From Pirellulales bacterium (lineage in GTDB: Bacteria; Planctomycetota; Planctomycetia; Pirellulales; Thermoguttaceae), in assembly GCA_016931995.1 (NCBI GenBank), contig JAFGDS010000028.1:1-49642 (forward strand): DNA of 49,642 nucleotides. The letters run 5' to 3'. The translations under genes were made by a program, and so were the position numbers. Numbering within the stretch: position 1 is the first letter of the stretch; the number at the start of each line of letters is the position of its first letter. Under the pieces are notes generated by a model, which saw only the letters and a program-made list of their open reading frames with translations, made no database searches and was not told the origin of the DNA. Shown piece by piece: positions 5,194 through 48,031 of this stretch.

Positions 5194-5262
5194 CGTCACG
5201 CCGAGCAAAGCGAAGCATCTCGTTCAAGGCTAGTAAGATCCTTCGCTTCGCTCGGGATGACG
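5194..5262. repeat. Hairpin repeat, GAGCGAAGCGAAGGATC family, copy 1
   Basis: Imperfect inverted repeat with arms starting CGTCACGCCGAGC and ending GCTCGGGATGACG. The outer bases GTCA/TGAC and the GAGCRAAGCGAAG/CTTCGCTTCGCTC core recur at 13143, 21922, 38171 and 43471. It lies in the leader of infC, between the predicted promoter and the start codon, so it would be transcribed. Confidence 0.8.
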
Positions 5263-13142: not shown

Positions 13143-13213
13143 CGATCCTGAGCGAAGCGAAGGATCCCGTTGGCGGTGAATGAGTTGAGATGCTTTGCTG
13201 CGCTCGGCATGAC
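13143..13213. repeat. Hairpin repeat, GAGCGAAGCGAAGGATC family, copy 2
   Basis: CGATCCTGAGCGAAGCGAAGG on the left and GCTTTGCTGCGCTCGGCATGACG-type right arm (13191-13213), imperfectly complementary. It sits in the 271-base gap before the asnS stop. A short GACGCCC/GGGCGTC hairpin follows at 13211-13229. Confidence 0.75.
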
Positions 13214-21888: not shown

Positions 21889-22023
21889 AGAGCCTGTCCC
21901 AGAACCCTCACCTGCGGTGAACGTCATCCTGAGCGAAGCGAAGGATCTCGTTGGCGTTAAAGGAGTTCAGATGCTTCGCTTCGCTCAGCATGACGGCGTT
22001 GCCTGGGTTCTGGGATGGGCTCT
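21889..22023. repeat. Nested palindromes: GAGCGAAGCGAAGG copy 3 inside an outer pair
   Basis: Outer arms AGAGCCTGTCCCAGAACCC (21889-21907) and GGGTTCTGGGATGGGCTCT (22005-22023) are near-perfect complements (17 of 19). Between them lies a full copy of the GTCATCCTGAGCGAAGCG hairpin family (21922-21995). Together with the hairpin at 21808 this explains most of the 394-base gap 21768-22161; the remaining 22024-22161 shows nothing recognisable. Confidence 0.85.
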
Positions 22024-38170: not shown

Positions 38171-38245
38171 GCCATGCTGAGCGGAGCGAAGCATCTGGAC
38201 TTGTGCGGGTGTCGCACGAGATCCTTCGCTTCGCTCGGGATGACG
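38171..38245. repeat. Hairpin repeat, GAGCGAAGCGAAGGATC family, copy 4
   Basis: GCCATGCTGAGCGGAGCGAAG...CTTCGCTTCGCTCGGGATGACG type element 36 bases before the HAD gene start, with a short related fragment just before it (38151-38160). Confidence 0.8.
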
Positions 38246-39011: not shown

Positions 39012-42000
39012 TCACGGTTCGAGCGTCTGGAACAGCGGCAGATGCCGGTAGTAGACCTCGAGCATGAGCAGGTTCATCGCGGTGACGTAGATCCGTCCTC
39101 CGGCGTGGCCCCAACGGTCGCGGACCGGCCGCGCCGGGTGCCAGCTTCCGGCCATGGGACCCGTCTGGGCCTGGCTGCTCTCTAACAGCGGGTGCAGGCG
39201 GTTGTTCCACGCCTCCCAGTAGTCGCCCTGCATTTGGAACATGACCTGCGTGGCGTAATACCAGTAATAGGCGTCGCGGGCGTTCGCGCCGTTGGCGGCG
39301 GCTTGGGGCAGATTGGCCTTGAGGTGGTTGGCCGCGCCGACCAGCGCGGCGTGTTGACTGGACCAGCCCAGATACATCCGCATCAACGTGCCTTCGGCCG
39401 TCATGGCCAGGTTGGGCACGCGCCCGGCCCGTTGTTCGGGCGTGTCGCCGGCGTGGGGATTGTAGATGTACCGCGTGCCGCCGTCCGCCTGCGCGGAATC
39501 GAGCCACGCGGAGACGCGCCGCAGCGTTTCCTCGGGGACGGCTAGCCCGGCCATCTGCGCGCTTTTCAGCGCCATCAATTGCCAGCCGGACACGGACGTG
39601 TCCGACTCCGTCCGCGGCTCGTAGCGCCAGCCGCCGCGCGTCGGGTGCTGCGCCTCGATGATGAACCGGATCGCGCGCTGGGCCGGCTCGCGGAGTTGTG
39701 GATCGCGGGTCATGCCGTAGGCTTCGCACAGGGCGATTGCCGCGATGCCGTGGCTGTAGAGCCGGGCGTAGTTGGTTCCGCCGGTGAACAGGTCGCCGTC
39801 GGGCTTTTGATTGGCCAGGAGCCATTCGAGCCCGCGGCGCACCGTGGCCCGATGTTTGTCGCTTTGATGCGTGTAGCCAGCCCCAAAGAACGAGAGCAAC
39901 GCCAGGCCCGTGGCCGCCGTGTCGGATTCCATGCTGCCCAAGGCGGGGTCGTCGCCGGCGGGCGCTCCAGCGGGCAGTTCCGACAGGCTCCAGCGTCCAT
40001 CGGCGAATTGGCATCGCACGAGGAACTCCAGCCCCATTTCGACCGCTCGCTCGGTTCCTTCGGTGCCGCCGTAGATTTCCACGGCGCGGGCTCGAAGGCC
40101 CGGGTCGCGCTGGCGGTAGGCTTCGGTGGGCAGATCGTGCGCGCGGCCGTCGACGGCCAGCCGTCCGCCGCTTTGCTCGACGAGAAACCGGCGGGACAGG
40201 GCGTGGACCACTTCGCTTTCGGGCCGCGCCCGATGACTGGGAATGCCCACCTGGGCCGACGCTTCGTAGCTCAACCCGCCGGGGCCCAGTTTGGCGGCGA
40301 TCTGGACGGGCAGCCCGCCGGCGCGGCGCGTGGGCGCGGCCTCTTCCAGTCCGGCTGTCAGGGTGATCTGGCCCGGCCCCTCCACCGGTCCGGAGACCGC
40401 CGCGGGCTCCTGGCCCAGCGTGTTGGCCAAGCCGCGCGGCAGGCCGGCCGTGTTGGTGCGGCGGAGCGGTCCGCCGCTGGATGGAGCGGCCAACGTTGGG
40501 CCCGGTTCGTCGCCCCGTGGAAGACGCCGCGGACCGGCCGTGGCGCCGGGCGTTGTGCCGACCGCGCCACCCGCCCTCGGCTGCGTCTGGGCCAGGTCCC
40601 GCGCCATGTCGCCCGATGAGACCCCGTGGGCTCGCTCGAAGCCGATCGATCCACTCGCGGCATCGCTCGGCGGACTGCCCGCCGCCATCGATCCGACCTC
40701 GAGCCGACTGGCCGCCTCGCCCGTGCCCGAAGGCACGCCGCCCGCGCCGGGCTCGGGCAGGTTTTCGGCCCCCACGACGCCCATCGGCACGCGGACGCCG
40801 CGATCGGCTCGGGCCAAGGTCGCGCTGGCGGCCGGACCGGTTCCGCCGCCCGTGGCGTCCCGCTCGGAAGCCTCCGCCCGACTGCCCGCCACCGCCGCGA
40901 GCGGTTGGCCTTCCGTCTGAAGCGAGGCGATCGCGCCCTCGCGAGCCTCGCCCGACTGCCCGCTGGGCAAGCCCGGCTGGCCCTGGCGTTGATGGTCGGT
41001 TCGCGCCTCCAGCGGCGCGCCACCGGGTCGGCCCTCGGACGGCGCGGCGGCCGCGATCTGCGGGGCGTCGACCGTGCCCGCCGGCGCGACGATCTTGCCG
41101 AGCTGCCGCGTGGGCGAGGGCGTCCCGCCCGCCGAGATGGCCGACGAAACCGACTCGTGCCGCGTCACCCGGGCGAGCTGCGCCGCGCCGATTTGATCCG
41201 GACTGCCGCTTCCGGCCGTGACGGGACCCGAGCCCACGCTGGGCCGCTGGGCCGCCACCGACGGGCTCCCGCCGCGCAGGGCGGCCGTGGCCGACGAGTT
41301 GGCCGTCAGCCGCGACGCGGTCCCCTCGCTGGCCGCCGGCGCGCCGGGTCCGGCAGGCATCGGCGATTCAAACGGCGGGGCCAACGCCGCGATACCCGAC
41401 GCCTGACTCCTCTCCACATGCACGGTGGACGTCTCCGCAGCCAGCCGGCGGCGCTGGTGGCCCGCGGCGCGGGCGATGCCCTGCCGCGCCACGGCGTCCT
41501 TCGAACCCACGGTCAACACCGCCTCGCCGGAGGAAGACGACTTGGCGCCGCGCGGCGCCACGGCGGCCGCCCGGGCGATGGGCAGTTCGCCGACAGCCTC
41601 GAGCACGCTGCCCGGCACGCCGCCAGCGGGAGCCGGCGTCCGCGCCGGCTCGGACGTGGCCAACACGGCCGACGGCACGTCCACGCCCGCGGCGGACCGC
41701 GCGAGCGTACCGGGCTGAGTGGCCGCGGTTTGGCCGGAAAGGTCAGGCGTGGCCACCGACTGCTCGGATCGCACGACCGCAAGGGCTCTCACCACGGACG
41801 CATTGCCAGGCGGAATGGATGATTCATCGGCGGCCAGAACCCGCTCGGGAACCGACTCGCGTGCGCCCGATTTGGCCGCCTCCGTGGCGCGGCGCTCCGC
41901 CGGGCTCAAAACCTGTTCGTTGGGACTCGCCGCAGCGGGCGCCGGCGGCGCATCGGCCGGCTCGGCCTGGGCCAGATCGGTCGGGTTGCGCGGCCGGCGA

Positions 42001-42929
42001 TCCAGCCCGGGCGCGGTGGGCTGGTCAACGAGCGGCTCCTCGGCGCGCTCGGTTCGCGCTAGCGCCGCGGCCTCTTGCGGGCGCGTGGCCGACGGCGCGG
42101 TCTCGGACGCCTCGCGCCGCGGTTTGGCCGGATCGGTTGCCCGGCGGGCCGGCGCGGCCACGTCGGCCCGAAGGTTCTCCGGCGCCGTCGCCGCCGGCTG
42201 GATCGCTTCGGGCTCGTTCATCGGCTCGTTGGGCTCCGGACGGCGCTTCCACTCCTGACGGCTGATCTGCGCCCCGGCGGCCAGTTGCGCCCGACGCGGC
42301 GCGGTCGGCTCCGCACGGTGGATCTCGACCGGATCGGGCTGCTGCGGCCGAGGCGACGCCGGCTCGACCGTCGGCGTCTTCTCAAGCGGCACGTCGTGCT
42401 CGACCGGCCGCGGCGCGATCGGCTCCGGATCGGTTGGCTTGGGCGCTTCGACTTCGACGGGCTCCTCGAACGTATGCCTGCTCTCCGGCCGCTCGATGTT
42501 CTCCCAATGATAATCCGGCACGACCAGGCGGGGATCGTCCTTCTCGATCGGCCGCGCGGCGTCGGCCTCGCGCCAGGCGGCCATCAGTTTGATGTACTGC
42601 TGGTGAAAAAAGAGTCCCAGCGCCAGATGCACCAAGAGACTCACCAGCACGCAAAGCTGCACGCGGCGCACCACCCGACCTTGAAGGAAAACCACCGCCA
42701 CCAGGGCCGCGCCCAGGGCCAGCGCAACCATCGCCAGCCGGAACACGGTGTTGTAGAGCAGATTCTCCGCGCGCCAATCGCCCGTGGCGATGGCGATGCC
42801 CGAGGCGAACCCGGCCAGGATCAGGATCGCGCAGTTGATCGGCCAGAGCTGGTCGTCGAAATCGGCGACCAGGCGGGGATCCACCTTGCGAACGACTTGT
42901 CGGGTGCGTGGGGGCATGGCGCGGCTCAT
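39012..42929 (-). CDS. Membrane-anchored prenyltransferase-like toroid protein
   Basis: 1305 residues. Three membrane helices at the N-terminus (about 30-49, 64-83, 90-109) are followed by about 845 residues of low-complexity Ala/Pro/Glu/Arg/Gly-rich sequence (about 110-955), then a C-terminal alpha/alpha toroid (about 960-1305) with QW-like motifs CQFADGRWSL, NQKPDGDLF and QHPTRGGWRY, of the squalene-cyclase/prenyltransferase type. The aspartates of the catalytic DxDD motif are not evident, so it may be a binding domain. The ATG overlaps the exbD stop (ATGA), so it is coupled to exbD and takes the place a TonB or TolA would have; this role is inferred. Confidence 0.75.
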   Translation of the reverse strand: MSRAMPPRTRQVVRKVDPRLVADFDDQLWPINCAILILAGFASGIAIATGDWRAENLLYNTVFRLAMVALALGAALVAVVFLQGRVVRRVQLCVLVSLLVHLALGLFFHQQYIKLMAAWREADAARPIEKDDPRLVVPDYHWENIERPESRHTFEEPVEVEAPKPTDPEPIAPRPVEHDVPLEKTPTVEPASPRPQQPDPVEIHRAEPTAPRRAQLAAGAQISRQEWKRRPEPNEPMNEPEAIQPAATAPENLRADVAAPARRATDPAKPRREASETAPSATRPQEAAALARTERAEEPLVDQPTAPGLDRRPRNPTDLAQAEPADAPPAPAAASPNEQVLSPAERRATEAAKSGARESVPERVLAADESSIPPGNASVVRALAVVRSEQSVATPDLSGQTAATQPGTLARSAAGVDVPSAVLATSEPARTPAPAGGVPGSVLEAVGELPIARAAAVAPRGAKSSSSGEAVLTVGSKDAVARQGIARAAGHQRRRLAAETSTVHVERSQASGIAALAPPFESPMPAGPGAPAASEGTASRLTANSSATAALRGGSPSVAAQRPSVGSGPVTAGSGSPDQIGAAQLARVTRHESVSSAISAGGTPSPTRQLGKIVAPAGTVDAPQIAAAAPSEGRPGGAPLEARTDHQRQGQPGLPSGQSGEAREGAIASLQTEGQPLAAVAGSRAEASERDATGGGTGPAASATLARADRGVRVPMGVVGAENLPEPGAGGVPSGTGEAASRLEVGSMAAGSPPSDAASGSIGFERAHGVSSGDMARDLAQTQPRAGGAVGTTPGATAGPRRLPRGDEPGPTLAAPSSGGPLRRTNTAGLPRGLANTLGQEPAAVSGPVEGPGQITLTAGLEEAAPTRRAGGLPVQIAAKLGPGGLSYEASAQVGIPSHRARPESEVVHALSRRFLVEQSGGRLAVDGRAHDLPTEAYRQRDPGLRARAVEIYGGTEGTERAVEMGLEFLVRCQFADGRWSLSELPAGAPAGDDPALGSMESDTAATGLALLSFFGAGYTHQSDKHRATVRRGLEWLLANQKPDGDLFTGGTNYARLYSHGIAAIALCEAYGMTRDPQLREPAQRAIRFIIEAQHPTRGGWRYEPRTESDTSVSGWQLMALKSAQMAGLAVPEETLRRVSAWLDSAQADGGTRYIYNPHAGDTPEQRAGRVPNLAMTAEGTLMRMYLGWSSQHAALVGAANHLKANLPQAAANGANARDAYYWYYATQVMFQMQGDYWEAWNNRLHPLLESSQAQTGPMAGSWHPARPVRDRWGHAGGRIYVTAMNLLMLEVYYRHLPLFQTLEP

Positions 42930-43336
42930 CCGTCCCGCGTGGTGACTCGGTAATCGTGGATATGGGCTTTATTGCAGGCGTTCATGGCCGCGACGACGTG
43001 CTCCCAGATGCACCGCTTGTCGGCGCGGATGACGACCGTCTGGTGTTGGTTGTCCACCCAGGCCGTCTTGAGCAACTGCTGAAGCTCCGGCAGGCTCAGG
43101 AGCTTACCCGTGACGTAGTACTGGCCTTCCTTGTTGATGTTGATAAACAGCTCCTTGGGCGCTATCGTCAAGGGCCGGGCCTCGCTGGCCTCGGGCAGCA
43201 TGACGTCCATCTCCCGCTCCTCCTCGGCAAATCGCGTCGCGACGAGGAAGAAAATCAGAAGCAGAAACACGCAGTCGATCAGCGGCGTCAGGTTCAGCCT
43301 GCCCAAAACCTTGCCGCGGTTGATCTCAACAGTCAT
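42926..43336 (-). CDS. exbD: ExbD/TolR family protein
   Basis: 136 residues, the usual size. A short cytoplasmic tail is followed by a single membrane helix with the essential aspartate, LTPLIDCVFLLLIFFL (Asp21), and a periplasmic domain. With ExbB or TolQ it forms a proton-driven stator that energises outer-membrane transport or envelope stability. It overlaps the toroid gene by 4 bases. The Shine-Dalgarno is weak. ExbB is next upstream but separated by 337 bases containing nested repeats. Confidence 0.93.
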   Translation of the reverse strand: MTVEINRGKVLGRLNLTPLIDCVFLLLIFFLVATRFAEEEREMDVMLPEASEARPLTIAPKELFININKEGQYYVTGKLLSLPELQQLLKTAWVDNQHQTVVIRADKRCIWEHVVAAMNACNKAHIHDYRVTTRDG

Positions 43337-43367
43337 GCTCGGCTCCGGACACTAAAGAAACAAAGGG

Positions 43368-43634
43368 AAGGAACCGCAGATGAACGCAGATGGTATTTGG
43401 TGGAGCGACCCTCTTTGGCTCGCAGGTGGCGTTGGGTGGAAGCAGGTTCTAATTACGTGCTCCATCTTACCGTCATCCTGAGCGCAGCGAAGGATCTGTC
43501 GCCGTCGAACACCAACGAGATCCTTCGCTGCGCTCGGGATGACGTTGGATAATCACGTTCTTTGGGAGACCGAGACACGCACGAGATCGCACATCAAATT
43601 CCTCATCTGCGTTCATCTGCGGTTCCTTTCCTTC
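43368..43634. repeat. Nested repeats between exbB and exbD
   Basis: Outer arms GGAAGGAACCGCAGATGAAC (from 43368) and GTTCATCTGCGGTTCCTTTC (43611-43630) are near-perfect complements about 220 bases apart. In the loop lies a full GAGCGAAGCGAAGGATC-family hairpin (43471-43544). Together with the arm at 43661 this explains most of the 337-base gap 43337-43673. Confidence 0.9.
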
Positions 43635-43660
43635 ATCTCTTCTTCTTCAACCTTGCGTCT

Positions 43661-43696
43661 CTCTCATCCGTGTTCATCTGTGTTTATCCGTGGTTC
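43661..43696. repeat. Single ACCACGGATAAACACAGATG arm, overlaps exbB end
   Basis: CATCCGTGTTCATCTGTGTT followed by TATCCGTGGTTCC on the plus strand. Read on the minus strand it encodes the last residues of ExbB (GTTDKHR) and its stop. Confidence 0.8.
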
Positions 43697-44612
43697 CCAA
43701 CGTTTCAGGCATCGGCGCGTCGGCCGGGTCGTCGTGGCGAACGCGCAGGCGGCCCTCGAAGCGTTCGAGTTGCGGCATCAGGCCCAGGAGCGTCTCGTCC
43801 AGCTCGCAAAAGAGCCGCTGGATCTTGCCTTCGAACATGTGGGCCAACAGGGCCGCCGGAATGGCCACGGTCAGGCCGGCCAGCGTGGTCACCAGGGCCT
43901 GGTAGATGCCTTCGGCGAGGACCTGGGCCTTGTTGGCGCCGGTGGGCAAATTGGCCGTGGCGAAGAACGCGAGGATCATCCCCCAGACCGTGCCCAACAG
44001 GCCCAACAGGGGCGCCACGCCCTCGGCCAGCACGAGCCAACGGATGTTGGCGAACAGCTTCGTGCCCTCGCGGCGCTGGGCCTCGGTAACGGCTGTTTCA
44101 AGCTCCGCGTGGGGGCGTCCGACCTTCAGCAGCATGGAGCGGATGATGTTCGCCGCGGCCGAAGGGTATTGCTGGCAGAGCTTGTACGCCTTGCGCGGGT
44201 CGAGCCCGCCGGGCTGACCGGCCAGCGCGCCCAGACCGTGGATCAGCGCCGGCGGCAGCACCTTGCGCCGCCGCAGCCCCAGCATCCGCTCCGCGCCGAA
44301 CGCGACGACCACCAGCGACATCAGCAGGATGGGCCACATGAGCGGCCCGCCCTTGAAGAGAAGCTCCAGCAGATTGATCTTCGGCTCCTCGACGACGGGC
44401 CCTTGCAGCACGGCGTCCGGCTCGCCGGCCGGCTGGGCAGCCAGATCCTTCTCGGCCTGTTTGGCGATGTCCTCCACCGTGGGCGGCGTGGCGGACGGCC
44501 CGGTCGCGTCCTGCGCTTGCGCCGCGGCCGGAAATACGAAGATCGCCCCCGCCAGTCCCAGGACCAACGCGGGCGCAAGCCATCGACGAGTCGAAAGAAA
44601 AGGAAGTGACAT
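43674..44612 (-). CDS. exbB: ExbB/TolQ family proton channel protein
   Basis: 312 residues. A signal-peptide-like N-terminus (LVLGLAGAIFVFPAAAQAQ) and about 50 periplasmic residues precede the first channel helix (WPILLMSLVVVAFGAE, about 93-108); the conserved pair of helices is GLLGTVWGMILAFFATA and LVTTLAGLTVAIPAALLA. It is the pentameric part of the ExbBD stator. The C-terminal GTTDKHR and stop are provided by a dispersed repeat arm. ATG 44612 (MSLPFLSTRR) was chosen as the start; a GTG at 44636 is also possible. The TPR gene lies upstream, 263 bases away. Confidence 0.9.
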   Translation of the reverse strand: MSLPFLSTRRWLAPALVLGLAGAIFVFPAAAQAQDATGPSATPPTVEDIAKQAEKDLAAQPAGEPDAVLQGPVVEEPKINLLELLFKGGPLMWPILLMSLVVVAFGAERMLGLRRRKVLPPALIHGLGALAGQPGGLDPRKAYKLCQQYPSAAANIIRSMLLKVGRPHAELETAVTEAQRREGTKLFANIRWLVLAEGVAPLLGLLGTVWGMILAFFATANLPTGANKAQVLAEGIYQALVTTLAGLTVAIPAALLAHMFEGKIQRLFCELDETLLGLMPQLERFEGRLRVRHDDPADAPMPETLGTTDKHR

Positions 44613-44680
44613 GAGCGGGCTCACAGGAAAGGTCACTTAAACGCAGCCCCTACCACAACGTCAACATGTTGTCAGACGGG

Positions 44681-44870
44681 AGATCACCACGGAGACACGG
44701 AGGCCACGGAGATGGTCATTGGCTCAAGGGCCGCGACATTGACGTATTTCGGATTCGCGTCCCAACGGGGCCACACCAGGGTTTCACTGACTGAAAGAGA
44801 CGATCCGTCGTCAACCAATCATCTCATCATTTATCTGTTCCTCTCCGTGCTCCCCGTGTCTCCGTGGTGA
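44681..44870. repeat. Inverted repeat, CCACGGAGACACGG type
   Basis: Arms TCACCACGGAGACACGGAGG (44684-44703) and CTCCCCGTGTCTCCGTGGTGA (44850-44870) flank about 150 bases that look non-coding. It fills the gap between the TPR gene and exbB and ends 6 bases before the TPR stop. Confidence 0.8.
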
Positions 44871-44875
44871 ATTCT

Positions 44876-47800
44876 TCATTTCTTTTCGCCCATCGACTCC
44901 AGCCGCTTCTTCGCCAGCGCGGCTTTGTCGTGGTTGGGGTATTTTTCGATCAGCTCCTTGTACAGCTTCACGGCCTGCTCGGGACGCTCGAGCACCTCGA
45001 AGCAGCGGGCGGCCTCGTACGTGGCGCTGGCCTGCCACTCGGGGTAGCTGTAGCCGTAAATCACCTGATAAAACGTCTTGATCGCCTCGGCGTGCTCCTT
45101 CTTGTCGAACTGAAGCTCGCCGACCATGAACAGCGCCCGGGCGGCCACCTCGCGGTTGGTCTTGGCCACGACCGTCTGGTAGAGCTTCACGGCCTCGTCC
45201 GGCTTGCCGAGGTTTTGCTGGGCCGCGCCTTGCTCGTAGAGAATCTCGGGCAGGTACTCGCTCTCCGGAAACCGCGCGACGGCGTCGGCCAGGAGCTTCA
45301 GGCTCGCGTCCCACTGGCCCAACTGCGCGGCCGCCTGGCCGGCGTGCAGCAGGCCGAGCACCTTGAAGTCCTTGCCCGTGGGCTCCTTGACTGATTCGTA
45401 CGCGGCCAGCGCTTCGGCGTGCTTGCCCTGGCGGCGGAAGCACTCGCCCTGCATGAAGGCGGCGTCCTCGGCCAGCTTGCCTTCGGGGAACGTCCGGCGC
45501 AGGAAGGCGAACGTCTCCTGGGCTTCGTTGAACTTGTCCTGATTGAAGTAGGACCAGCCCAGCTTGTAGCTGGCCTTCTCCTTCAGGCCCGAGTCGGACG
45601 CCTTCTGGCCCACGTCATAATAGGCCGCGGCGGCTTCGGCGAATTTCTTCTCGTCGTATTGACCTTCGGCCACGAGATACAGGCTTTCGGCGGCCAAGGG
45701 GCTGTCCGGATGCTCCTTGGCCAATTGCGCGAACCGCCGCAGGGCCTCCGGCTGGTTGCCCGACGACTTCAGCGCCCAGGCCAGCTCGTAGAGCGTCTTG
45801 TCCGATCCGCCGTACTTCGGATCGTCCTGGATCATCGCCTCGAAGGTCTTGACCGCCTCGGCGTGCTGCTTGAGCCCCACCTGGCACAGCCCCAGGACGT
45901 ACCGGGCGTCGGACCGCTCGCGCGGCGTGGGGTCGGCGGCCAGCAGGGTTTGCAGGTCCTCGATTGCCGGGGCGAACTTGCCTTGCTGTTGCCGGGCGGT
46001 GCCCCGGGCGAAACGCGCGCGTGGGATCAGCTTGTTGTCGGGAAACTCGGCCACGAGCCGATCGAGCGTCTTCTCCGCGCCGGCGGGGTCGCCCTGCTGG
46101 AGCTTCGCCCAGCCAAGGCCGTAAAGCGCGTGCGTTGCCAACGGGCTTGTGGGCCATTTCGCCAGGACCGTTTCGTACTGGGCCGCGGCGGTCTTCATGT
46201 CGCCCTGGGCGTAGGCGAACTCGCCCAACCAGTAGTTCGCCTGGTCCGCCAGCCGGCTTTCGGGAAACTCGGCCAGGAGCCGCCGGGCCGTCTGGGCGGC
46301 CTTTTGCGGATCTCCGCCGCGGTAATAAGCGTTGGCCAGAAGCAAAAGCGCGTCGTCCGCCTGACGCCATTTCGGATCGGCCGCCAGCGAGGACGATAGC
46401 GACGCAATGGCCGCGCCGTGCTGGCCCAGCTCCTCCTGGCTCGCGCCGACGAGGTAGTGCGCCTCGGCCAGGGCTGGCTTGGCGTGGATCTCGCCCAGTG
46501 CGCCCTCGAGGGCCGCGACCACCTCGGCGTGCTTCTTTTGAAGATGGAGCGCCAAGCCGCGGCGGACCTTCCACGACTCCGCGTCGCGATGGCCGGCGTG
46601 CTTGTCGAGCAACTGGCCAAAGAGCCGCTCGGCCTCGGCATGGTCGCCGGAAAGCAGATGCGCCTCGGCGGCGATGGCCGTGACGTCCGGCCGCAGCGGG
46701 CTGTCGGCGTATTTCTTCAGGTACTTTTCGGCCAGGCCCAGCGCCCGGGCGTGCTCGCCTTGTCCCAGCGCGGCGAAGCCGGCCATGTACAGCGCGGAAT
46801 CGGCGGCCGGGTCGTCCGGGTACTTCTCGGCCAACGAGGCGTACTGGTCAATCGACTCCGCCCGGCGGTCCGGAAGTTCGTACAGCGCGTCGGCCCGATC
46901 CAAGAGCAACTCGACCGCGAAGGGATCTTTCTCGGCCGCTTCGGCGGCGGGCAGGGCGTTTTCGACCGCGGCGAGGGCTTCGGCGGATTTGCCCTCCTTG
47001 AGCAGGCTGCGGGCAGTCCAGTGCGCGGCTTCCGGCACGAGAGCGCCGCCCGCGGCGAGGACTTTTTCGAGCACCCCGCGGGCGTCGGCCCATTGGCCGG
47101 CCAGGTAGTAACACTTGCCGGCGGCCAACTCGGCCTCGGCGATGCGTTTGGACTCGGGGAACTTCACGGCGACCGCGGCGTAAAGCGCGGCCGCCTCGGG
47201 ATATTTCTTCAACTGGGCCAGCGACGCCGCCTGGCGGAGCAGGGCGTGGTCGGCCAGGGCAAAACCCTTGCTCTGGGCGGCGTAAGCAAACCACTCGGCC
47301 GCCGCCTCGTATTGCTTGAGCCCAAAGAGCGTCTCCCCGCGGCGCATGCCGACCTCGACGATGAGGTCGTGCTTGGGGAACTTCTCGCGGAACGCGTCGT
47401 AGGCGGCGCCGGCCTTCTCGAACTCGCCCAGCTCCTCCCGGACGGTGCCCAAGGCGTACAGGGCGTCGGCCATAAGCTCGTCGTTGGGATACTCCTTGAC
47501 GAGCCGCTCGTACCAGCCGGCGGCTTCCTTCTTTTTGCCCTGCGCGTAGTCGCATTCGCCGCGGTAGTAGATCGCCTCGGCCAGATGTTTGCTCTTCGGA
47601 TACTTCGCGATGAGCGTGTCGAACGAGGCCGTGGCGTCCGCGTAGCGCTCGGCTTGGCCGGCTTTGGCCGCGTTAAACCGCGCCACGCCGAGGTAGAGAT
47701 AAGCCGCGTCCAAGAGGTCGAACTTGGGTTGCTTCTCGACCAACGAACCGAGCGTCGCGATGGCCTGGTCCAGCCGGTTGGCCTGGAGGCAGCAGATGCC

Positions 47801-48031
47801 CAGGTTCAAGGAGGCCTGGGGAGCGAAGCCGTGATCGGGGAACTGTTGGAGGAAATCGTTCCAGGCGTCGGCGGCCAGCTCGAATTGATCGCCGCGTTGC
47901 AGCGCGGCGGCCGCGCGGTAGGCGCGATTGCCGGCCTCGGTCGCGTCCTGAGCCGGCGCCCCGCGCCCAACCAACACGAGCGCGAGCGCGGCGGCCCAGG
48001 CCGCCCGCGGGGCCCAACGGGAGAGCTTCAT
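44876..48031 (-). CDS. Large secreted TPR protein
   Basis: 1051 residues. A signal peptide (MKLSRWAPRAAWAAALALVL, cut near APAQ) is followed by more than 20 TPR-like helix pairs with patterns such as YxxAxxxFxxLLxxFPxSxLAxxAxYxLGE through the whole length, similar to BamD/YbgF-type repeats. It should be periplasmic or outer-membrane-associated and act as a scaffold. It is the first gene of a cluster with exbB, exbD and the toroid protein. ATG 48031 has GAGG 7-10 bases upstream. YbgF/CpoB in the Tol system is a much smaller TPR partner in a similar gene neighbourhood. Confidence 0.85.
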   Translation of the reverse strand: MKLSRWAPRAAWAAALALVLVGRGAPAQDATEAGNRAYRAAAALQRGDQFELAADAWNDFLQQFPDHGFAPQASLNLGICCLQANRLDQAIATLGSLVEKQPKFDLLDAAYLYLGVARFNAAKAGQAERYADATASFDTLIAKYPKSKHLAEAIYYRGECDYAQGKKKEAAGWYERLVKEYPNDELMADALYALGTVREELGEFEKAGAAYDAFREKFPKHDLIVEVGMRRGETLFGLKQYEAAAEWFAYAAQSKGFALADHALLRQAASLAQLKKYPEAAALYAAVAVKFPESKRIAEAELAAGKCYYLAGQWADARGVLEKVLAAGGALVPEAAHWTARSLLKEGKSAEALAAVENALPAAEAAEKDPFAVELLLDRADALYELPDRRAESIDQYASLAEKYPDDPAADSALYMAGFAALGQGEHARALGLAEKYLKKYADSPLRPDVTAIAAEAHLLSGDHAEAERLFGQLLDKHAGHRDAESWKVRRGLALHLQKKHAEVVAALEGALGEIHAKPALAEAHYLVGASQEELGQHGAAIASLSSSLAADPKWRQADDALLLLANAYYRGGDPQKAAQTARRLLAEFPESRLADQANYWLGEFAYAQGDMKTAAAQYETVLAKWPTSPLATHALYGLGWAKLQQGDPAGAEKTLDRLVAEFPDNKLIPRARFARGTARQQQGKFAPAIEDLQTLLAADPTPRERSDARYVLGLCQVGLKQHAEAVKTFEAMIQDDPKYGGSDKTLYELAWALKSSGNQPEALRRFAQLAKEHPDSPLAAESLYLVAEGQYDEKKFAEAAAAYYDVGQKASDSGLKEKASYKLGWSYFNQDKFNEAQETFAFLRRTFPEGKLAEDAAFMQGECFRRQGKHAEALAAYESVKEPTGKDFKVLGLLHAGQAAAQLGQWDASLKLLADAVARFPESEYLPEILYEQGAAQQNLGKPDEAVKLYQTVVAKTNREVAARALFMVGELQFDKKEHAEAIKTFYQVIYGYSYPEWQASATYEAARCFEVLERPEQAVKLYKELIEKYPNHDKAALAKKRLESMGEKK

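Follow-up and report, generated by a model that had tools for sequence, protein, structure and literature searches.

The window analysed here is the whole of a 49,642-nucleotide stretch (contig JAFGDS010000028.1, called C65 below) of the 5.43-Mb, 99%-complete genome of a Pirellulales bacterium (GCA_016931995.1). It carries genes for a tetratricopeptide-repeat (TPR) protein, for the motor subunits ExbB and ExbD and for a membrane protein that ends in an (alpha/alpha)6 toroid (Table 1). This toroid protein is probably a force transducer of the TonB/TolA kind with a non-TonB tip. The strongest evidence pointing to this function, which formed no part of an earlier sequence-only reading of the same DNA, is a Ser-x3-His motif in its third transmembrane helix (TM3). 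That reading had proposed that the toroid protein takes the place of TonB on ExbBD, and the proposal is supported by several comparisons, namely the linkage of its gene to exbD, the lack of a TonB_C match in the genome and the S-x3-H motif.

A putative motor-docking motif in TM3

The motif by which TonB and TolA dock on their motors (SHLS) is given as Ser-3X-His-6X-Leu-3X-Ser, with the Ser and His touching TM1 of ExbB or TolQ (PMC12905483). In the window protein TM3 has the sequence CVLVSLLVHLALGLFF and holds Ser97-x3-His101. The motif was followed in 70 multi-helix and 17 single-helix toroid proteins that differ from one another within the last 400 residues, near-identical ones included. The docking His is present in 66/70 multi-helix and 17/17 single-helix proteins (64/68 and 16/16 once near-identical proteins are removed) and the docking Ser in 51/70 and 17/17, while Leu stands at +11 in 24/70 and 13/17, respectively. 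The Type II protein L067 and seven propeller-type proteins, all outside these 87, keep the His in 8/8 and have Ser or Ala at the Ser position. At 15 loci picked by hand elsewhere in the phylum, a predicted helix contains S- or A-x3-H in 17 of the 19 toroid reading frames.

For background, the reading frames of the window and the loci other than toroid ones supplied 420 predicted helices, and S-x3-H was found in seven: four at TonB_C loci (one gene occurring in two loci), one in a vWA protein beside the exbB-exbD genes of contig C82, and two unrelated. Within the first 520 residues, the motif picker favours hydrophobic stretches that have the S or H, and given this background the bias is small. 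As a positive control, the TonB_C reading frames were inspected by eye: S-x3-H lies close to the N-terminus at seven of nine TonB_C loci and is absent from the reading frame at the other two.

The mean number of Lys and Arg residues per 12 positions is 3.1 before TM3 and 1.0 after it, which indicates that TM3 runs from inside to outside like the helix of TonB. Beyond TM3 there is a short conserved segment, in which P[DEN]Y occurs in 38/70 proteins versus 17/3500 control windows of the arm, and an aromatic-x-x-P motif (the FExPV region) in 34/70 versus 0/3500. It sits roughly at the place of the TonB D-box and departs from the exact published pattern (PMC10907165). The segment may be a D-box that binds ExbD.

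The four genes and their motor

The four genes described in the sequence-only reading (TPR protein, ExbB, ExbD with Asp21 and toroid protein) were all recovered as reading frames. The MotA_ExbB, ExbD and SQHop_cyclase_C matches exceed the Pfam cut-offs, and the last of these (1.4e-6, residues 1020-1152) is the sole Pfam match of the toroid protein. Hydropathy likewise agrees with the three membrane helices claimed for this protein, as composition does with its long low-complexity arm of about 830 residues; in relatives the arm reaches up to about 1800 residues. The start of the toroid gene overlaps the stop of exbD as ATGA, as had been stated, and this was read directly in the sequence. The TPR protein has a Sec-type signal peptide by eye, with no lipobox seen, and repeat models of the YbgF/CpoB/BamD type score highly on it.

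Table 1. Features of the toroid locus, in window coordinates.
Feature	Position	Strand	Description
TPR protein	44876..48031	-	1051 aa, large periplasmic protein, CpoB/YbgF/BamD-type repeats
ExbB/TolQ-type motor subunit	43674..44636	-	320 aa, GTG start, Pfam MotA_ExbB 3.5e-23
ExbD/TolR-type motor subunit	42926..43336	-	136 aa, Pfam ExbD 9.9e-27, proton-binding Asp21
Toroid-tipped membrane protein, proposed force transducer	39012..42929	-	1305 aa, ATGA overlap with exbD
TM1	42783..42839	-	residues 31-49, hydropathy
TM2	42681..42737	-	residues 65-83, hydropathy
TM3	42606..42662	-	residues 90-108, Ser97-x3-His101, the TonB/TolA motor-docking signature
Conserved post-TM3 segment	42453..42533	-	residues 133-159, LVVPDY...FEEPVE, candidate ExbD-binding D-box
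Low-complexity arm	40104..42593	-	residues 113-942, Ala/Pro/Gly-rich
C-terminal (alpha/alpha)6 toroid domain	39015..40103	-	residues 943-1305, AlphaFold2, Foldseek and VIA-align

The motor residues are strongly conserved. ExbD Asp21 is kept in 69/69 collected sequences, and the ExbB residues Thr216, Thr251, Pro260 and the TM1 residue Ser107 in 59/59, 58/59, 57/59 and 57/59, respectively. Judged from these residues, the motor looks active. By residues and synteny alike, an ExbB/ExbD pair with the proton Asp and the pore Thr residues stands beside the toroid gene.

Packing at the locus is loose: exbB is separated from exbD by 337 nt, a gap that contains an inverted repeat, and from the TPR gene by 239 nt. 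A REP-like inverted repeat with GAGCGAAGCGAAGNATCT arms occurs in five copies in the window (5203-5253, 13150-13205, 21931-21986, 38179-38236 and 43480-43535), of which the last lies between exbB and exbD; the search for it gave 10 matches versus 0.12 expected.

Conservation of the gene order

Linkage was scored in the best 80 of a longer list of toroid-domain matches. All 80 loci are titled Planctomycetota, the top ones as Planctomycetaceae, Thermoguttaceae, Thermogutta or Pirellulales. Sixty-six were scorable and 14 were skipped (5' end cut off, a fragment, or too little upstream DNA). Directly upstream of a multi-helix toroid gene (at least 800 aa) we found exbD at 48 of 52 scorable loci, the furthest at 163 nt, with exbB upstream at 42/52 and a relative of the TPR gene at 37/52; the order TPR-exbB-exbD is kept at all 37 multi-helix loci that have the TPR gene. 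The 14 other scorable loci comprise 13 single-helix ones lacking exbD, exbB and the TPR gene, and L173, which is taken up below.

A second set, drawn from relatives, holds 27 multi-helix loci with complete 5' ends (L040, L041, L044-L065, L074, L075 and L078, omitting L039, L042 and L043, whose 5' ends are cut, and L066, which is broken into two frames). In this set exbD lies upstream at 22/27 loci, as counted from the table. The two sets are not independent, as L113, L117, L141, L144 and L172 hold the same toroid genes as loci of the relatives' set; after removal of these five, the 80-locus set gives exbD at 44/47, exbB at 38/47 and the TPR gene at 35/47.

Across the whole domain family the picture differs. 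Six genomes hold 52 toroid-domain copies and 50 ExbD, and a toroid gene directly follows exbD in 10 cases. According to the tables from which these pairs were read, they belong to the window's class in 5/6 genomes and to a second, shorter class in 5/6. Linkage is limited to 10/52 because the shorter paralogues, which have one helix or no anchor, stand apart from exbD. The expectation that the toroid gene always accompanies exbD is therefore kept for the multi-helix class and rejected for the family at large. The genome of the window has nine toroid-domain copies, two of them directly downstream of exbD, and its contig C134 bears a complete second, paralogous TPR-exbB-exbD-toroid operon. Phylum-wide, the domain was found in 138 of the 149 Planctomycetota genomes searched, the window's own included, and exbD is directly upstream of the toroid gene at 7 of the 15 hand-chosen loci.

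The toroid tip

AlphaFold2 predicts residues 943-1305 with high confidence from 68 aligned sequences (pLDDT 94.7, pTM 0.93). Foldseek matched the predicted tip, with similar scores, to single barrels like those of squalene-hopene cyclase, to GH76 mannanases, to AprG and to sugar epimerases. VIA-align placed squalene-hopene cyclase first (2sqc_A: Z 26.7, 287 aligned, rmsd 3.1, 19% identity). The predicted fold is that of the terpene-cyclase (alpha/alpha)6 barrel, with GH76, epimerase and other (alpha/alpha)6 families inseparable from it by fold alone. Many Tyr, Trp, Gln, Asp, Glu and Arg residues of the tip are invariant in the 68 sequences, and on the simplest reading of this alignment the tip would be a conserved binding surface. 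The reading frame is long and GC-rich, but an artefact was ruled out because in 39 other aligned sequences the toroid domain shows 39-75% identity to that of the window protein and because its fold is confidently predicted.

The toroid protein could instead be a membrane-anchored, active periplasmic enzyme for the processing of terpenoids, glycans or lipids, with ExbBD merely positioning it or moving its substrate. A barrel common to cyclases, GH76 mannanases and sugar epimerases, and the many invariant Tyr, Trp, Asp, Glu and Arg residues, would suit such a role. However, the S-x3-H motif in differently anchored paralogues would be left unexplained, and the fold-level SQHop_cyclase_C is alone in passing its cut-off among the family models that match the window protein. 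Squalene cyclases carry DXDD as their general-acid motif; the aligned position of the tip, assigned by eye from its xxxDTA context, is Ser in 52/68 sequences and Asp in 0/68. Overall, we regard the enzyme explanation as unlikely, and an active squalene cyclase is rejected because the general-acid Asp is missing from all 68 sequences and the protein has a single barrel.

TonB, receptor plugs and Tol-Pal in the carrier genomes

The sequence-only reading held that neither TonB nor a TonB-dependent receptor is coded here, which proved correct. No match to TonB_C (PF03544) turned up anywhere in the 99%-complete genome or in the toroid protein itself, and no receptor plug was matched on the contig. 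TonB_2 (PF13103) is also without a match in the genome, although this test is weak because the control gave no signal in E. coli. Elsewhere the genome encodes nine receptor plug domains (for example on C44, C55, C78, C34, C36, C146, C144 and C148), yet no TonB_C or TonB_2 match accompanies them.

Of 12 related genomes, six have TonB_C and the other six, among them the window's, have no match to it. Plug domains have no match in 4/12, including G059, which carries the whole operon, and G028, which carries an exbD-toroid pair at which the contig ends; TonB_C is likewise unmatched in these two. One of the two TonB_C genes of G041 adjoins an exbB-exbD pair, and G042 has both a toroid operon and a TonB_C protein. 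As for a rival TonB partner in the same genomes, which would have spoken against the toroid protein as transducer, none was found in the window's genome, G059 or G028, whereas TonB_C does occur in half of the genomes and is linked to exbB-exbD in G041. At L107 (G041:C1:2753448-2760305), a single-helix toroid gene adjoins a TonB_C gene of the same orientation.

These data also bear on a possible Ton system with a different kind of tip, in which the toroid protein instead of TonB would energise the TonB-dependent receptors. The nine plugs of the window's genome, found without a TonB_C match (or, on the weak test, a TonB_2 match), would be accounted for by such a system. However, it is disfavoured because two carriers, one of the whole operon and one of the exbD-toroid pair, lack plug matches; moreover, G042 combines the toroid operon with a TonB_C protein, and the window's contig is devoid of plugs. 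We therefore hold this explanation to be very unlikely.

TolB_N (PF04052) was matched in 0/12 genomes, with positive controls in E. coli, Caulobacter and Bacteroides. Planctomycete Tol-Pal has been described as "largely reduced" (PMC8871954).

Loci where the linkage breaks

At five of the 27 multi-helix loci of relatives (L050, L057, L059, L064 and L078) exbD is missing next to the toroid gene. The genomes concerned (G031, G041, G044, G040 and G017) all have an orthologous exbB-exbD pair elsewhere (5/5), so the parts co-occur in the genome even where the operon is split. A long TPR gene accompanies the pair in G041, G044, G040 and G017 (4/5); none was seen in the 14 kb of G031 that were covered. 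ExbBD driving an unlinked transducer, with the toroid gene in the operon for co-expression only and no contact between the products, can be given little credence: it would fit the loci without linkage (4/52 and 5/27 in the two sets), but not the retention of an orthologous exbB-exbD pair in all five genomes or a docking motif in the toroid protein itself that is oriented as that of TonB.

Observations that weigh against a force transducer

Several observations count against a TonB/TolA-like transducer. The window protein has three membrane helices where TonB and TolA have one, and it keeps only the S and H of SHLS, with Phe at +11 and Tyr at +15. In the multi-helix proteins the docking His is replaced by Asn in three and by Tyr in one of 70, and the docking Ser by Cys in seven, Gly in six and Ala in six (19/70). 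The invariant residues of the tip would fit an enzyme equally well. The CpoB-like scores of the TPR protein derive from many generic repeats, so its likeness to CpoB is weak evidence. In the 80-locus set, the multi-helix loci L114, L131, L141 (the same gene as L059) and L161 are without exbD. L126 (Blastopirellula marina) and L155, L163 and L169 (Pirellula or Rubripirellula-like), each with 7.6-8.4 kb of upstream DNA, have exbD, but no match to exbB or the TPR gene; contig ends explain some such absences in this set, not all. Finally, L173 (6887-10561) has exbBD and the TPR gene upstream, but its toroid protein lacks the docking motif, has a single predicted helix and seems to be without TM3, for which a frameshift or a loss of the helix might account.

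A proposed mechanism

With these points considered, we still favour the toroid protein as a transducer. ExbB, proposed as a pentamer, and ExbD, proposed as a dimer, would form a proton-driven motor. TM3 would dock on the flank of ExbB via Ser97 and His101, as in TonB and TolA, and the short conserved segment after it may bind the periplasmic ExbD dimer. Proton flow through ExbB and ExbD (Asp21, Thr216 and Thr251) would then pull or extend the long, probably disordered arm and so move the toroid, which might grip a periplasmic, cell-wall or outer-membrane ligand through its strictly conserved Tyr, Trp, Asp, Glu and Arg residues. The TPR protein would be a periplasmic partner, as CpoB is for TolA. 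The single-helix toroid paralogues, which have the same motif and no neighbouring motor, may be tips that share motors in trans. We infer the docking, the transfer of force, the ligand, the part of the TPR protein and the Tol-like task discussed below.

Relation to known systems

The likeness to TonB-ExbBD and TolA-TolQR lies in a motor with the essential Asp and Thr residues, an in-to-out helix with S-x3-H, a long low-complexity arm and a distal folded domain. The tip differs, being an (alpha/alpha)6 toroid in place of the C-terminal domains proper to TonB and TolA, and unlike the Ton and Tol systems the toroid locus has no receptor plug on its contig and no TolB_N in its genome. With squalene-hopene and other type II terpene cyclases the tip shares the predicted barrel fold, whereas it is a single barrel without the DXDD acid and is fused to a membrane anchor and an arm.

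The closest published parallel is a set of vWA-tipped transducers with SHLS, which are proposed to act in the manner of TonB/TolA and occur in the PVC group, where TPR, tolQ-like and paired tolR-like genes adjoin them, and in other phyla (Williams-Jones et al. 2025, PMC12204202). Both systems would combine a non-TonB tip on a transmembrane helix with a disordered linker and with TPR, tolQ-like and tolR-like genes next door. The published system has a vWA tip and a linker of about 100 residues, and its PVC loci often have a tolR-like pair (PMC12204202), whereas the toroid operon has one exbD, a toroid tip, a longer arm and a three-helix anchor. No vWA domain was matched by Pfam in the toroid protein, and the word "squalene" is absent from the main text of that article (PMC12204202). 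No report of a link between a toroid and ExbD was present among the literature matches listed, which excluded subscription journals and preprints from their scope. The novelty suggested for the system by the sequence-only reading holds in part: the toroid tip and its link to ExbD appear new within that literature, but vWA-tipped transducers of TPR-tolQ-tolR operons in the PVC group had already been published (PMC12204202).

In the window's own genome, a protein that resembles the published vWA type is encoded at L071 (G000:C82, 7521-10855); it has a weak vWA match, below the Pfam cut-off, and an S-x3-H-x6-L helix, and stands beside a TPR-exbB-exbD cluster.

Variants and side loci

A propeller-like region precedes TM2 at L064, L065, L074, L075, L153, L172, L174, L177, L217 and L219, mostly with exbB-exbD upstream; the assignment rests on PD40 or PorE/TolB-like matches where scanned and on position and sequence resemblance in the rest. 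In L074 and L065, PD40 lies between TM1 and TM2 above the Pfam cut-off. The propellers of L177, L153 and L172 match the NCBIfam models of PorE and CHU_0125, which are OmpA-like envelope proteins, and more weakly TolB, all below the curated cut-offs and with no OmpA domain listed. A sequence search of the PDB with the propeller region gave no match, and the window protein is without a propeller match.

Weak toroid genes were also seen upstream of exbB-exbD-exbD at L070 (4266-8896, G000:C36, with a HEAT match) and at L101, and near two exbD genes at G051:C10:4053214. At L210 (998-9894) and L211, a TPR-like gene and exbB occur together with three exbD genes, the last of which directly precedes the toroid gene.

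Implications for the planctomycete envelope

Although this is less certain than the mechanism, the system most likely serves envelope mechanics in the manner of Tol-Pal, not import through TonB receptors. A Tol-Pal- or PorE-like task is suggested by the lack of TolB_N in all 12 genomes, the reduced planctomycete Tol-Pal, the PorE/TolB-type propellers and the YbgF/CpoB-like TPR protein.

The planctomycete periplasm is unusually wide. We raise as a tentative and rather doubtful possibility that Planctomycetota run their envelope mechanics with toroid-tipped transducers throughout the phylum, comprising dedicated TPR-ExbBD-toroid machines (propeller variants included) and several single-helix toroids in each genome that draw on common motors. 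In this scheme the ligand of the toroid would be a glycan or lipid of the wall or outer membrane, and the machines would either replace Tol-Pal or power the handling of macromolecules across the periplasm.

If the toroid protein is indeed a transducer, it would represent, after vWA, a second family of non-TonB tips for the force transducers of ExbBD/TolQR, one that is widespread and multi-copy. His101 provides a single-residue test point for this. The finding also suggests a function for many proteins that Pfam would just call squalene-cyclase-like, and it offers a candidate means by which planctomycetes with a reduced Tol-Pal may move or tether their outer membrane.

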